From Aminobacter aminovorans (GTDB lineage: Bacteria; Pseudomonadota; Alphaproteobacteria; Rhizobiales; Rhizobiaceae), in assembly GCF_900445235.1 (NCBI RefSeq), contig NZ_UFSM01000001.1, positions 4,665,501 to 4,729,500 of the forward strand: a DNA stretch of 64,000 bases, written 5' to 3'. The notes beneath the pieces are model-generated. The model made no database searches, was not told the origin of the DNA, and saw only the letters and a program-made list of their open reading frames with translations. Positions 3,744-43,109 of the stretch are shown here, piece after piece. The position numbers were made by a program, and so were the translations under genes. Position 1 is the stretch's first letter. The number at the start of each line of letters is the position of its first letter.

Positions 3744-3760
3744 AGCGCCTGAACAAGATA

Positions 3761-3870
3761 CCCGGCGGGCGGTTCCTCCTCCCTCTGCCTGCCGGGCGAA
3801 GCGGCCAGCACCTCCTCCCGCTGGTCACATAAAGGAAAAGGCCGGCACCTCCTCCCGCCGGCCTTTTTCT
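3761..3870 (+). ncRNA. Cuckoo/CcsR/MmgR-like small RNA with three CCUCCUCCC loops
   Basis: Three consecutive hairpins each expose CCTCCTCCC in the loop. Hairpin 1 has stem 3761-3770/3787-3796 (10 pairs, one G-U) and motif 3775-3783. Hairpin 2 has stem 3803-3809/3820-3826 and motif 3811-3819. Hairpin 3 has stem GGCCGGC 3840-3846/GCCGGCC 3857-3863 and motif 3848-3856, followed by TTTTTCTTTTTT, so it also serves as an intrinsic terminator. CCUCCUCCC is complementary to GGGAGGAGG, i.e. to ribosome binding sites. The architecture matches alphaproteobacterial CcsR/cuckoo RNAs and recalls MmgR of Sinorhizobium, which limits phasin and PHB. No clear dedicated promoter is seen; processing from the phasin transcript is possible. 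Confidence 0.75.
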
Positions 3871-3953
3871 TTTTTCGACGGCCACGGATGGCCTGAATTC
3901 AAGGACTTCCCACAGCCAGCGCAAATCGCCGCAGTGGAATATGCGCAAAGCTC

Positions 3954-38850: not shown

Positions 38851-39201
38851 CTACTTCACCGCCTCGCATGACAGCGTCGCCGGCGCGTCCTCGCCCTTGG
38901 TCAGGTCGTAGAGATCGGCGTTGTCGCCCTTGGTCCACCAAATAAACTGCTGACCGGCATATCTGGCGCCGCTGGCGCTAAGAACGGTAACGGCCACGAC
39001 CGTCTGATCGCCGAGCGTGAGCACAACAAGCGAATTGTCGCCGGCGTTGACGTATTCGGCCTTCACCGTCTGGTCGCCGCATTTGTAATCGACCGCGTTG
39101 TGCTCGACCTTTGCATCGCCCGGCAGTTCCAGCGTCACGGTCGAAGCCATTGCCGCTCTGGTCGCGGCAGCAAGGATGATCGCGGTGAGGCTCAAGCGCA
39201 T
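38851..39201 (-). CDS. MliC/PliC-type lysozyme inhibitor-like periplasmic protein
   Basis: A 116-residue exported protein with a signal peptide (MRLSLTAIILAAATRAAMAS). The mature part has the MliC pattern: VDYKCGDQTVKAEYVNAGDN, VTVLSASGARYAGQQFIWW and TLSCEAVK at the end; the two Cys may form a disulphide. The family blocks c-type lysozymes, protecting peptidoglycan. No lipobox is seen, so it is soluble (PliC-like). The ATG at 39201 follows AGGAG. It lies downstream of the ABC-F gene on the same strand. Confidence 0.8.
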   Translation of the reverse strand: MRLSLTAIILAAATRAAMASTVTLELPGDAKVEHNAVDYKCGDQTVKAEYVNAGDNSLVVLTLGDQTVVAVTVLSASGARYAGQQFIWWTKGDNADLYDLTKGEDAPATLSCEAVK

Positions 39202-39247
39202 GATGGACTCCTGAATCGCTCGTCTTGTGAACGATAGCATGGCGGAC

Positions 39248-39395: not shown

Positions 39396-40925
39396 CTAAG
39401 CGCCGTTCTGCGCCACATCGGCAAAGAAGCCTTCCGGGCTCTCCACTTCGACCAGCCGCTTCTTTTCGATCAGCCAGAAGCGGTTGCCAACGGCGCGGAC
39501 GAAGCTGCGGTCGTGCGAGACGAGCAGGCAGCTCGCCTCGTGCTTCAGCAGTTCGTCCTCCAGGGCCTCCTGCCCGTCAATGTCGAGGTGGTTGGTCGGC
39601 TCGTCGAGCAGGTAGAAGTTCGGGTTGGTCAGCCGCAGAACCAGCATTCCCAGCCGCGCCTTCTGGCCGCCGGACAAGCGGCCGATCGGATTGGCCTGCA
39701 TCTCGACGGTCAGGCCGGCGCCGGCGAGCAAGGTGCGGGCCCGCTGCTCGCCAAGCTCGAATCTGCGCGTCAGCATCGACAGCGGCGCATCGCTGTCCCT
39801 GAGATCGGACAGCCCCTGGTCGCCATAGCCCAGCACCAGCGAGGGCGTGGCCTTGACCACGTCCCTGGCATTTTCCGGCGCGCCGATGGCTTGCCTGACC
39901 ATGTTGACCAGCCGCGTCTTGCCGGTGCCGTTGCGGCCCAGCAGGACGACGCGATCGCCCTGGCGAAGCCATAGCTTGCCGGTACGAAACAGCAGCGTTC
40001 CATCAGGCGTGGTGACCGGCGCATCGTCGAAGGTGACCAGCACCTTGGCGTGCGTGCCACGGTTGGCGAGCCTGATGGCGCCGGCCGAACGCTCCAGATG
40101 GGCCGGCCTCGCCGCATCCTCCAGCCGCTCGGCCCTCTCCTTCAACTGCTTGGTCTTCACCACCAGCAGGTCACTGCCCGAGTTGATGCCGATGTTGTTG
40201 AGCTTGGCCGCCTGGCGGCGCAATTGCTGCGCGGTCTTCATGTCCTTTTCGAAGCGGCGCGCTTCCGATGCATCGATCTCGTCAAGCGCTTCCCGCGCCC
40301 TGGAATAGGGCAGCGAGAAGACCTGCGAGTTATCAGGCCTGAGGAAAAGCGTCCGGTTGGTTACCGCATCGAGGAAAGCGCGATCATGGCTGCAGATCAC
40401 CACCGGCACGTCGCGCGGCAGCGCATTCAGCCAGTTCTCAAGCTGGGCGATGCGTACGAGATCGAGATGGTTGGTCGGCTCGTCGAGCAGCAGCATGTCC
40501 GGCTCGGTCACCCAGACACGGGCGAGCATTGCCAGCCGCTGCCAGCCACCGCTCAGTTTCGACAGTGGCCGCTGCCGCATCTCCTCAGGCACATCGAGAT
40601 CGTCGAGCACGATGTCGACGCGCCAGCTCTCGCTTTCTGCCTGGTCAGCGGGAAGTGCTCTGAGGACGGCGTCATGGAATGCCATGTCGATCAGGCTTGC
40701 CGGCACGTCTTGCTCGACATGGCCGACCCGCAGGCCGCGTGCCCGGGTGATGTCGCCTGACGTCGGCTCGAAAGCGCCTGTAATCGAGCGCAGCAAGGTG
40801 GACTTGCCGCGGCCATTGGCGGCGACGATGCCGAGGCGGTCGCCCGGCTCGATGGAAAGGTTGAGATTGGAGAAGAGCGGAGCACCGAGCGTTACGCCGA
40901 GCGACCTCAGATTGATCAAAGCCAT
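39396..40925 (-). CDS. ABC-F family ribosome-associated ATPase
   Basis: A 509-residue protein of two fused ABC domains without membrane segments. Domain 1 has IVAANGRGKSTLLRS, LSGGWQRLAMLARV and MLLLDEPTNHLDL. Domain 2 has LLGRNGTGKTRLVNM, LSGGQKARLGMLVLRL and YLLDEPTNHLDIDGQE. A charged linker (about 210-270, RRFEKDMKTAQQLRRQAAKL) is the ribosome-contacting part. ABC-F proteins rescue ribosomes stalled by antibiotics or by awkward peptides. The ATG at 40925 has only a weak ribosome site and is preceded by a structured leader with its own small ORF, which suggests drug-induced expression. Confidence 0.92.
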   Translation of the reverse strand: MALINLRSLGVTLGAPLFSNLNLSIEPGDRLGIVAANGRGKSTLLRSITGAFEPTSGDITRARGLRVGHVEQDVPASLIDMAFHDAVLRALPADQAESESWRVDIVLDDLDVPEEMRQRPLSKLSGGWQRLAMLARVWVTEPDMLLLDEPTNHLDLVRIAQLENWLNALPRDVPVVICSHDRAFLDAVTNRTLFLRPDNSQVFSLPYSRAREALDEIDASEARRFEKDMKTAQQLRRQAAKLNNIGINSGSDLLVVKTKQLKERAERLEDAARPAHLERSAGAIRLANRGTHAKVLVTFDDAPVTTPDGTLLFRTGKLWLRQGDRVVLLGRNGTGKTRLVNMVRQAIGAPENARDVVKATPSLVLGYGDQGLSDLRDSDAPLSMLTRRFELGEQRARTLLAGAGLTVEMQANPIGRLSGGQKARLGMLVLRLTNPNFYLLDEPTNHLDIDGQEALEDELLKHEASCLLVSHDRSFVRAVGNRFWLIEKKRLVEVESPEGFFADVAQNGA

Positions 40926-40943
40926 ATCAGTTCTCTGGTCTGG

Positions 40944-41041
40944 CCGGACCTTGGCCCGCATCCGATCTTGCGGGATGCATTTGGGGCACCGGGTCCGGTG
41001 TTTATCCAGATGCGGCAGAGCATGAAGCTCGACGCCGCATC
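40944..41041 (-). promoter_or_regulatory. Structured 5' leader of the ABC-F gene (three hairpins)
   Basis: Between the leader ORF and the ABC-F ATG are nested stems: CCGGACC (40944-40950) with GGTCCGG (40992-40998); inside it CCCGCA (40955-40960) with TGCGGG (40969-40974); and upstream GATGCGGC (41009-41016) with GCCGCATC (41034-41041). The innermost pair sits about 20-50 bases before the start codon, so it could hide the ribosome site. The 455-base gap 40926-41380 is otherwise explained by the leader ORF, its promoter and the tandem repeats. Confidence 0.55.
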
Positions 41042-41151
41042 ACCACGAAGGGCAGACCGGGAGAGAGATACGCAACATTGGATACCACATCGTACAGTCC
41101 AAAAATCAAAACTGATCGTTGGGGTCGATGCGGTTGGCGCGTCGTCCGGGG

Positions 41152-41223
41152 TCAGCCCTGCAAACGCATCTGCAGGGCGTGGACAGGGCCGCGCTGACGG
41201 TGGTGACGAAAAAACGTGTACAC
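41152..41223 (-). CDS. Putative 23-residue leader peptide of the ABC-F gene
   Basis: A GTG-started ORF of 23 codons plus TGA. AGGAGGG lies only a few bases upstream, a far better ribosome site than that of the ABC-F gene itself. The peptide starts (M)YTFFRHHRQRG and ends ALQMRLQG. It contains Arg-Gln-Arg, a +X+ motif of the kind at which macrolide-bound ribosomes stall in Erm leaders. Its last codons form a perfect hairpin, 41155-41162 with 41171-41178. Stalling on the peptide would expose different downstream structures. Function is inferred from layout. Confidence 0.6.
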   Translation of the reverse strand: MYTFFRHHRQRGPVHALQMRLQG

Positions 41224-41256
41224 GCAGCCCTCCTTTGTTGTTCGAGTTGCGCGCTC

Positions 41257-41285
41257 TAGATAGCCGCGACCTCGTTCCGTTGCAA
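41257..41285 (-). promoter_or_regulatory. Promoter of the ABC-F leader
   Basis: Read on the minus strand, TTGCAA (41285-41280), a 17-base spacer and TATCTA (41262-41257) form a good sigma-70 promoter. The start of transcription would be near 41250, about 27 bases before the leader GTG. Confidence 0.6.
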
Positions 41286-41409
41286 GCCTACTGCATCGTC
41301 AGTTCGCTGCGCTCCAGCCTACTGCATCGTCAGTTCGCTGCGCTCCAGCCTATTGGATCGTCAGTTCGCTGCGCTCCGGCCTATTGGATCGTCAGCTCGC
41401 TGCGCTCGC
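41286..41409. repeat. Four tandem 31-bp repeats copying the 3' end of the VWA gene
   Basis: Units start at 41286, 41317, 41348 and 41379. The last one is the coding end of the von Willebrand gene (codons for ERSELTIQ and its TAG); the other three repeat this sequence, stop codon included, beyond the gene. Units differ at a few positions (GCATC/GGATC, CTCCA/CTCCG). There are no spacers, so it is not a CRISPR. It looks like slippage duplication. Confidence 0.85.
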
Positions 41410-43036
41410 CGGCCTTGACGGTTGCCGAGCCTTCTTTCTTGCCTGCGTCGCCGCGATCGACCTCGACGACATAGTCACCTGCCGGCAAGGTCGTCTGGTG
41501 CTTCTGGTCATAGGCGTAGCCGAAGCCCTGGCGATTGCCCTGGATGTCCTTCTTGGCCGCGAAGACGCGGATTTCCTTGGCGCCGGGCGCATCGATCGCT
41601 AGCACGCCGGCACCGAGCACGGCGGTCACCTCACCACTCTCACCGACCCGGACATTGAAAGGCTGCTCGGCCTCGGCCTGGTCCATGCGCGCCACCAGGA
41701 CATAGTCGCCGGCAGGCAGATCGAACTTGTTGCCCGGCCCATAGCCATAGGTGACCTGATCGCGCGTGCCGTCGATCTTCTTCCTGGCCTTGTAGACCCG
41801 GACGTCGAGCCCCCCGGCATCGACCTTGTCGCCGCCCTCGGCGTAGAGCGCATTGGCCACGACATGGCCGACGCCGACTATGATGTCCTTTTCGACGGTC
41901 TGGCCGGCGGCGAGCTGGATCGTCTCATTGGCCTCACCCTGGCCGATGGTGACCTTCAGCTTGGTTTCGCCGGCGGGCAGCACCACCTTGGTCTGGCCGT
42001 AATAGGTCGCCGGGTGGTCGCCGCCGGGGAAGTCGAGCACGACGGCGGCACCATCGACGATGTCGGCGCCTTCGCTCGGGCGCGGCCGGACAACAAGCGT
42101 ACCGGCATTGAGAACGAAAAGCGGCTTGTAGGCCTGGCCTGCCTCCACCTTCAGCGGCTGCTCGACGGCTGCTTCTCCGAGCGTCGCGCGGATGACATAG
42201 GCGCCGGCTTCAAGCGATCCCTTGTAATTGTTGTATTCGGTGGTCAGGCGTTCGCCCTTGGAGCCGTCGGCATTGGCCTTGTAGATCTCCCAGGCATTGC
42301 CGGCGTCCTTCAGCGGCGCTCCGCCCTCGGCCAGCGTCAGCTCAGGAATGAAGTTGAACTCCGGCTTGGCCGGCTCCGGCGCAGGCGCCGGTTCCGGGGC
42401 CGGTGTGGGTGCCGGCGCGGCAACCGTCTGCACCAGTGCGTCTTCCAGCCCCTTGGCGTCGGTCGCCTGAATGTACTTGCCGCCGGTGTTTTCGGCGAGG
42501 CAAGCGACCTGCCTGCCCTCCTCCGCCGTCAGGCCGAAGCCGACGACATGGGCGGTGAAATCGACACCCGACTTCTCGAGCTCCTTGCCCAGCGCGCAAG
42601 GATCGGCGTTGCAGGTCTCCAGCCCGTCGGTGATGAGAATGACGGTTGCCTTTTCCTCGGTATGTTTCAGGTCCTCGGCCGCCTGCTTGACGGCGGCTGA
42701 CAACGGCGTCTTGCCGAGGAATTTCATGCTGTCGGCAGCGGCGGTGATGGCCGATGCCGAGCCCGACGCCGGCGGCACGATCAATTCGATGTCGGAGCAG
42801 CTGCCCTTTTCGCGGTGGCCATAGGCCATCAGCCCAAGTTCGGTGTCGGCGGGAATTGTGGTCAGCACCGAACGCAGTGCCTCGCGGGCGATTTCCAGCT
42901 TGGGCTTGCCGTCGATCTGGCCCCACATCGAGCCGGAGGCATCGAGCACGATGATGGTTCGGTCGGCGGCGTCAGCGGTTGCCAATCCCGACAGCATGAA
43001 GACGGACGCCAGGATGCCTCGTGTAAACGCCTTCAT
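41381..43036 (-). CDS. Exported von Willebrand factor A protein with C-terminal beta repeats
   Basis: A 551-residue periplasmic or surface protein. Signal peptide (MKAFTRGILASVFMLSGLAT, cleavage near ADA-AD). The VWA domain (about 26-200) has the metal site IIVLDASGSMWGQIDG and ITDGLETCNADPCALG. A Pro/Ala hinge (about 205-230) follows. The remaining 320 residues hold four related beta modules, marked by LEAGAYVIRATLG, LPAGETKLKVTIG, LPAGDYVLVARMD and LPAGDYVVEVDRG. The ATG at 43036 follows GAGGG. Role unknown, perhaps envelope adhesion or assembly. Its 3' end is tandemly duplicated downstream. Confidence 0.85.
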   Translation of the reverse strand: MKAFTRGILASVFMLSGLATADAADRTIIVLDASGSMWGQIDGKPKLEIAREALRSVLTTIPADTELGLMAYGHREKGSCSDIELIVPPASGSASAITAAADSMKFLGKTPLSAAVKQAAEDLKHTEEKATVILITDGLETCNADPCALGKELEKSGVDFTAHVVGFGLTAEEGRQVACLAENTGGKYIQATDAKGLEDALVQTVAAPAPTPAPEPAPAPEPAKPEFNFIPELTLAEGGAPLKDAGNAWEIYKANADGSKGERLTTEYNNYKGSLEAGAYVIRATLGEAAVEQPLKVEAGQAYKPLFVLNAGTLVVRPRPSEGADIVDGAAVVLDFPGGDHPATYYGQTKVVLPAGETKLKVTIGQGEANETIQLAAGQTVEKDIIVGVGHVVANALYAEGGDKVDAGGLDVRVYKARKKIDGTRDQVTYGYGPGNKFDLPAGDYVLVARMDQAEAEQPFNVRVGESGEVTAVLGAGVLAIDAPGAKEIRVFAAKKDIQGNRQGFGYAYDQKHQTTLPAGDYVVEVDRGDAGKKEGSATVKAGERSELTIQ

Positions 43037-43109
43037 GCTGCCCTCACCGATTCTGTTTGAATGCAGCGAAGCTAAACAAGGGCCATTGGGCTGACAACCC
43101 TGAGGCCGA

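Follow-up and report, generated by a model that had tools for sequence, protein, structure and literature searches.

In attenuators of the ermC type, a leader open reading frame (ORF) with a strong Shine-Dalgarno (SD) sequence precedes the regulated gene; helices 1:2 and 3:4 form in the off state, with the SD sequence of the target gene held in 3:4, and segments 2 and 3 pair with each other upon stalling of a ribosome on the leader. The locus described here, upstream of an ABC-F gene of Aminobacter aminovorans, shares with this type a leader ORF that has its own SD sequence, a hairpin 1:2 and a helix 3:4 over the target SD sequence, the alternative helix 2:3 being predicted by modeling. It differs from ermC in its target, which is an ABC-F protein and not a methyltransferase, in its occurrence in Alphaproteobacteria and in its peptide core, H-R-x-R-G-P-V, with a predicted stall at Gly-Pro.

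Other described leaders come close in single respects. According to the accessible portion of a report on vmlR of Bacillus subtilis (PMC9226507), stalling on an upstream ORF (uORF) likewise alters the leader structure of an ABC-F gene, with a stem that sequesters the SD sequence. However, the vmlR uORF has three codons and acts by transcription attenuation at an intrinsic terminator, whereas the leaders studied here mostly have 21 to 28 codons, and a scan of positions 40800 to 41500 of the window (the whole stretch of 64,000 nucleotides [nt] that was analyzed) detected no terminator-like site. The ABC-F gene msrD is also induced via a stalled leader peptide, but that peptide, MsrDL, reads MYLIFM, stalls ribosomes at its own stop codon and acts by transcription attenuation, as far as the available text of PMC10314930 goes. 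In the part of PMC12121999 at hand, toiL-topAI of Escherichia coli provides a Gram-negative uORF on which stalling exposes a buried ribosome-binding site (RBS); unlike here, the target is a toxin-antitoxin system and not an ABC-F gene, and sensing of several drug classes at different positions was proposed. Finally, arrest peptides of the RAPP/RGPP and SecM types, as covered by the available sections of PMC12992588, resemble our leader in having Arg-Gly-Pro near the predicted stall, little N-terminal requirement and a small upstream ORF. These peptides end in R-A/G-P-P or R-A-G-P, cores that are absent here, the window reading R-G-P-V, and the RAPP/RGPP-type examples cited in those sections precede protein-localization genes in place of an ABC-F gene. 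A literature search that covered titles and the starts of abstracts, with most subscription papers and all bioRxiv preprints outside it, returned no ABC-F leader in Alphaproteobacteria, and a text search with the same coverage limits found HHRQRGPV, HRTRGPV, RQRGPV, RTRGPV and ALQMRLQG nowhere.

A sequence-only reading of this DNA had pointed to a promoter with 17-bp spacing, a strong SD sequence, a 23-codon GTG ORF with a perfect hairpin in its last codons and further stems before a poorly initiated ABC-F gene, and all of these elements are indeed present (Table 1). In transcript order, TTGCAA and TATCTA, 17 nt apart, are followed by AAGGAGGG, the GTG ORF, the hairpin and a 226-nt spacer leading to the ABC-F gene. 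A promoter-like pair of this type recurs in 78 of 84 relatives; when upstream DNA was mononucleotide-shuffled in 20 rounds, the mean was 9.25 and the maximum 13. A strict sigma-70 consensus scan of positions 40800 to 41500 found 0 sites, and the promoter call rests on the conservation of this pair. The leader ORF recurs upstream of orthologous ABC-F genes, and a match of at least 5/7 to AAGGAGG precedes the chosen start in 84 of the 86 distinct leaders, the start being chosen by that match. The leader hairpin (41178 to 41155), whose 8-bp stem is perfect, ends at the leader stop codon. The ABC-F start at 40925 is preceded by a weak AGAGAA only, with further stems upstream of it; the ORF could be opened at 40961, and the homologue match starts at 40925. 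The 361-nt strand folds with a z score of -4.59 against 100 dinucleotide shuffles. An Rfam search of positions 40850 to 41500 returned no family at the gathering score, the best match having 19.4 bits versus 100.

The surroundings of the locus yielded three side observations. Immediately before the leader promoter, about four tandem copies of 31 bp (41285 to 41407) repeat the final codons and the stop of a VWA-domain gene (41381 to 43039, minus strand), and the end of the last copy is the start of the -35 hexamer. Just downstream of the ABC-F gene lies a small gene for an MliC-domain (lysozyme inhibitor-like) protein (38851 to 39240, minus strand). Elsewhere, positions 3756 to 3872 of the plus strand match the alphaproteobacterial small RNA family ar14, beside a tRNA gene.

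Table 1. Features of the leader region and the ABC-F gene, with the basis of each assignment
Feature	Positions	Strand	Basis
-35 hexamer TTGCAA	41280..41285	-	Seen in sequence; promoter-like pair in relatives
-10 hexamer TATCTA, 17-nt spacer to -35	41257..41262	-	Same basis as -35
Leader SD sequence AAGGAGGG	41228..41235	-	Seen in sequence; SD matches in relatives
Leader peptide ORF, GTG start, 23 codons, TGA stop: MYTFFRHHRQRGPVHALQMRLQG	41152..41223	-	Sequence and conservation
Gly12-Pro13 codons, predicted stall site	41185..41190	-	Conservation and modeled geometry
Element 1, 5' arm of leader hairpin, GCCCTGCA	41171..41178	-	Compensatory changes; partner permutation
Element 2, 3' arm TGCAGGGC with stop codon and CC	41150..41162	-	Partner is element 1, or element 3 in the Gly-stalled model
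Element 3, anti-RBS CCGGTCTGCCC	41050..41060	-	Modeled partner: element 4 (free or terminating), element 2 (Gly-stalled)
Strand 5' of element 3	41062..41072	-	Off-state minimum-free-energy pairing with 40936-40932 and 40928-40923, including the ABC-F start codon
Element 4, CAGACCAGAG, ABC-F ribosome-binding region	40933..40942	-	Covariation with element 3 in relatives; predicted structure
Extra off-state stem CCGGACC (40998-40992)/GGTCCGG (40950-40944), this genome	40944..40998	-	Predicted pairing
ABC-F ATPase, 509 amino acids, putative regulated gene	39396..40925	-	ORF; homologue and domain matches

The conservation of the leader peptide was then examined. Of 99 loci, 91 passed a core pattern (GGNCCN), giving 86 distinct leaders in which the first two bases of the Gly and Pro codons are fixed by construction; L087, L092, L114, L115 and L120 to L123 were left out of the 86-row counts. 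Run as a check, the comparison of the 86 distinct leaders gave an ORF conserved as protein, with synonymous variation. The peptide is conserved around H-R-(Q/T)-R-G-P-V, with His at position -4 in 64, Arg at -3 in 79, Gln or Thr at -2 in 83 and Arg at -1 in 69 of the 86, and with Val (72 leaders) or Ile (8 leaders) at +2. Third positions are free at the core codons (entropy of 1.79 bits at Arg -3, 1.12 at Gly and 1.68 at Pro), and selection therefore acts on the peptide there. The hairpin codons GCC and CTG, in which third positions do not vary (0 bits), are thus under selection as RNA. The N terminus is variable in sequence and length, with 9 to 22 residues before Gly-Pro (11 in 50/86). The distance from Gly-Pro to the hairpin, which is set by the pattern in the 86 rows, is identical in the eight leaders outside the filter. 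Of 12 divergent leaders to which no Gly-Pro filter had been applied, 10 retain Gly-Pro; the other two are L121 (core GSV) and L123 (core RQPV). Three leaders (L092, L115 and L124) are of a divergent GPR(F/Y/H)AL type; in L092 and L115, a change in the hairpin brings the stop codon directly after GPRxAL, and the hairpin is still kept.

Hairpin 1:2 was compared in 98 rows, namely, 86 preselected rows with at least six pairs, the eight filter failures, and L124, L125, L126 and L129. Over the 8 pairs of the 50 distinct hairpins, 398 of 400 cells hold standard pairs, and two-sided, compensatory changes occur at four pairs (U-A/C-G, G-C/A-U, C-G/U-A and A-U/G-C). Pairing partners were further permuted 5000 times over 40 ABC-F protein clusters, using the 76 of 84 rows with a spacer of at most 160 nt; the window row is absent from this covariation test because its spacer is too long. 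Native 3:4 pairing had a mean of -19.6 kcal/mol compared to -17.5 kcal/mol for permuted partners, with 0 of 5000 permutations as good, and beat the cross mean in 27 of the 40 clusters. Native 1:2 pairing (-16.1 versus -15.6 permuted) was likewise equaled in 0 of 5000. No covariation was detected for 2:3 in the 40 clusters (3697 of 5000 permutations were as good, and 4420 when the whole spacer was used), which we link to element 2 being nearly invariant. When ungapped helices were sought across species anywhere in the spacer, native 3:4 was slightly better than cross pairings (-15.6 versus -14.4 and -14.2) and native 2:3 was no better (-13.3 versus -13.9 and -14.0).

The complementarity of element 3 and the RBS takes several forms: CTGGTCT/AGACCAG in many relatives, GTCTCAT/ATGAGAC or a G-U variant in L104, L106 and L118, and TTTCTTTGATT/AATCAAAGAA in L085. 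The predicted helix 2:3 has 8 of 9 pairs in the window and reaches p ≤ 0.05 in 21 of 84 rows. Element 2 and the RBS each have a best target site within the spacer; these two sites coincide at least in part in 70 of 84 rows, whereas 43.8 would be expected. Sequestration of the ABC-F RBS by element 3, in helices that are mutually exclusive, is supported by these comparisons.

Ribosome positions on the leader were modeled, using 84 of the 86 rows for the row-wise and position models (L014 and L103 are without a usable start). The mean openness of the ABC-F ribosome-binding region over 42 clusters was 0.37 with the P site one or two codons before Gly, 0.43 at Gly, 0.42 to 0.45 over the next five codons and 0.34 to 0.38 beyond. 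Compared with termination, the difference was positive in 30 of 42 clusters for Gly (p = 0.0006; means of 0.43 versus 0.36, a modest difference) and in 31 of 42 for Pro (p = 0.001). Row by row, the Pro-stalled RNA was more open than the terminating RNA in 63 of 84 rows, and it beat shuffles of the released segment at a rank of ≤0.05 in 20 of 84; opening was not predicted for L104, L106 and L118, which have the GTCTCAT-type element 3. In the minimum-energy structures predicted for the window, free and terminating RNA have 41058-41053 paired to 40937-40942, and the start codon is paired to 41070-41072. A ribosome whose P site is on Gly changes this: 41150-41153 and 41155-41158 are then predicted to pair with 41058-41055 and 41053-41050, and 3:4 is lost, two start-codon bases and three binding-region bases being still locally paired after this flip. 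When the P site is on Pro, 3:4 persists and no flip is predicted; relatives such as L076, L066 and L050, in contrast, are predicted to flip in this Pro-stalled state. The modeled structures of the window thus fit the switch, less robustly than those of such relatives. On conservation and modeled geometry, Gly-Pro is the best supported candidate for the stall site.

Among the genomes searched, the leader is near-exclusively linked to one ABC-F orthologue group across Rhizobiales and other Alphaproteobacteria. A DNA search with the leader gave matches in 24 of 151 genomes, including 10/10 of the genus (G000 to G009); the ABC-F gene was seen downstream in 9 of these 10, the contig of G008 stopping before the gene. 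One weak match (L025, E = 4e-4) is without ABC-F, and L014 is cut off at the contig end. On plasmids of Rhizobium, Pararhizobium and Sinorhizobium, the leader lies upstream of an orthologous ABC-F gene in 6/6 places, with the ABC-F match of L036 in two frames. A covariance model built from 28 leaders, the window row included, scored the leaders of orthologous ABC-F genes with E values down to 5e-31. Applied to 397 genomes of the order, it returned 60 strong matches (E ≤ 1e-8), each in a different genome and all 60 upstream of ABC-F; in L095, the ABC-F match is split. In L103 (G242), about 1.4 kb of extra DNA, probably an insertion, separates the leader end near 381 from the ABC-F match at 1942, close to the ABC-F start. 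Of the weak matches to the model, six (L107 to L112, E of 2e-4 to 4e-3) were examined and judged to be due to chance; none of these six has an ABC-F gene.

When the 397 genomes of the order were searched at the protein level, ABC-F was present in 63 of them at an E value of 1e-110 or better, and 59 of these belong to the 60 leader loci (the 60th is L095). The leader accompanies 62 of the 63 ABC-F matches, three of these leaders being divergent and recognized by eye; the lone match at which none was seen by eye has 38% identity. In a sample of 385 genomes of the class, 11 further leaders were detected at an E value of 1e-4 or better. A leader is present at 11 of 12 orthologues in the class that are at least 52% identical (that of the window excluded), one of them recognized by eye (G657). 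The sole case without a visible leader at this identity is the orthologue of G735 (65% identity, locus L128), whose upstream region is AT-rich, and none is visible at six ABC-F relatives with 39 to 43% identity in the class sample. In named genomes, which overlap in species with the other genome sets, the exact pattern gave at least 118 loci; among the matches listed, 117 have ABC-F within 420 nt and the last one is cut off by the locus end (79/80 and 38/38 precede ABC-F). Leader-bearing organisms include Mesorhizobium, Rhizobium, Ensifer, Bradyrhizobium, Bosea, Devosia, Roseomonas, Nisaea and Acidisoma.

The ABC-F product scored 294 bits on the general ribosomal protection-like model NF000355 (cut-off 380). 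None of the named ARE ABC-F families in NCBIfam (Sal, Vga, Msr, Lsa, OptrA and others) was above its cut-off, the best being Sal with 217.8 bits versus 725. Among solved structures, a chain named ExpZ (8buu), which we take to be VmlR2, is the best relative, ahead of human ABCF1, YheS and YbiT. Orthologues are patchy, with 62 in the 397 genomes of the order and, at ≥52% identity, 13 in the class sample of 385; patchy presence across related genomes is treated as a hint of a resistance function by Murina and colleagues, in the available part of PMC6723617. As judged from sequence comparison, a resistance function of this ABC-F group is likely. The genome of the window (G000) also carries five further high-scoring ABC-F-like genes, e.g., at C1:3106724-3108238.

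Taken together, we hold it to be very probable that this locus is a real, conserved, stall-dependent translational attenuator with ermC-type architecture. During normal growth, the leader would be read to its stop codon and hairpin 1:2 would form. In this off state, element 3 would pair with element 4, burying the ABC-F SD sequence and start codon. A ribosome held on Gly-Pro would open element 1 with its leading edge, and the freed element 2 (the 3' arm of the hairpin with the stop codon) would then pair with element 3 and release the ABC-F RBS. The comparative basis of this attenuator, as shown by the genomes compared, is a conserved peptide, a conserved hairpin, a covarying 3:4 and the near-exclusive link to ABC-F; translation of the leader, the stall and 2:3 pairing in the cell are what we infer. 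The signal would most likely be a ribosome-targeting antibiotic against which the ABC-F protein protects.

A possible, though doubtful, alternative to such a drug signal is that R-x-R-G-P-V acts as an intrinsic or semi-intrinsic arrest that is resolved by the ABC-F protein itself, so that low ABC-F activity would lead to stalling and switch the gene on. E. coli ABC-F proteins have reportedly been studied in connection with hard-to-translate sequences, which we counted in favor of such a loop. The Arg-Gly-Pro core resembles RGPP and RAGP, and the variable N terminus of the leader also speaks for it, RAPP and RGPP arresting with various N-terminal sequences in the sections available of PMC12992588. 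The tie of the leader to one ABC-F group within the genomes searched points the same way, as does the finding that MsrD represses its own induction (PMC10314930, in the part available). However, the final Pro of RAPP/RGPP is replaced by Val or Ile in most of the 86 leaders, and so patchy a gene suits accessory resistance better than a housekeeping factor. We would give a similarly tentative place to the broader idea that a Gly-Pro arrest, either intrinsic or brought about by a natural inhibitor of the niche, senses ABC-F activity: the ABC-F protein would resolve precisely this arrest, and the RNA switch would turn unresolved stalls into more ABC-F.

The sequence-only reading had proposed Arg-Gln-Arg, a +X+ motif, as a macrolide arrest site. 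We regard a macrolide sensor that stalls there as rather unlikely. The motif is present in the window, MefAL and ErmDL arrest with macrolides at a +X+ motif according to the accessible text of PMC10314930, and 68 of the 86 distinct leaders, as well as 65 of 80 named-genome leaders among the matches listed, have basic residues at both -3 and -1. In contrast, leaders with HLTYGP or HRTYGP are without the motif, and, unlike at Gly-Pro, no opening of the RBS was modeled with X in the P site (difference from termination of 0.003, 24 of 42 clusters, p = 0.5). The attenuator as such, which that reading had raised as possible, is supported by peptide-level selection, mutually exclusive helices and the sequestered RBS; it is Arg-Gln-Arg as its stall site that was not supported.

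Control by transcription attenuation in place of translation attenuation appears quite unlikely. This mode was described for the ABC-F genes vmlR and msrD (PMC9226507 and PMC10314930, in the parts at hand), but the terminator scan of positions 40800 to 41500 was negative, and the covarying partner of element 3 is the RBS. Rho-dependent termination may act downstream of an untranslated start, as in topAI according to the available text of PMC12121999. That the leader is only an unannotated small-protein gene with incidental stems is hardly credible: peptide-level conservation alone would suit it, but the N terminus and tail are variable, L092 and L115 end directly after GPRxAL, the third positions of the hairpin codons are fixed and 3:4 covaries.

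In the translational attenuator proposed here, ABC-F is probably under stall-dependent control across an orthologue group of Alphaproteobacteria, with a leader peptide core that matches no arrest motif in the literature compared. An uncharacterized ABC-F group, outside the named resistance families, is thereby indicated as probably inducible, and its leader offers a sensor for finding what stalls ribosomes in rhizobia. Moreover, the question of whether ABC-F proteins act on the stalls that induce their own genes is made testable. If self-sensing is true, a ribosome-rescue ATPase would here gauge its own substrate, closing a feedback loop that is conserved over a bacterial class.
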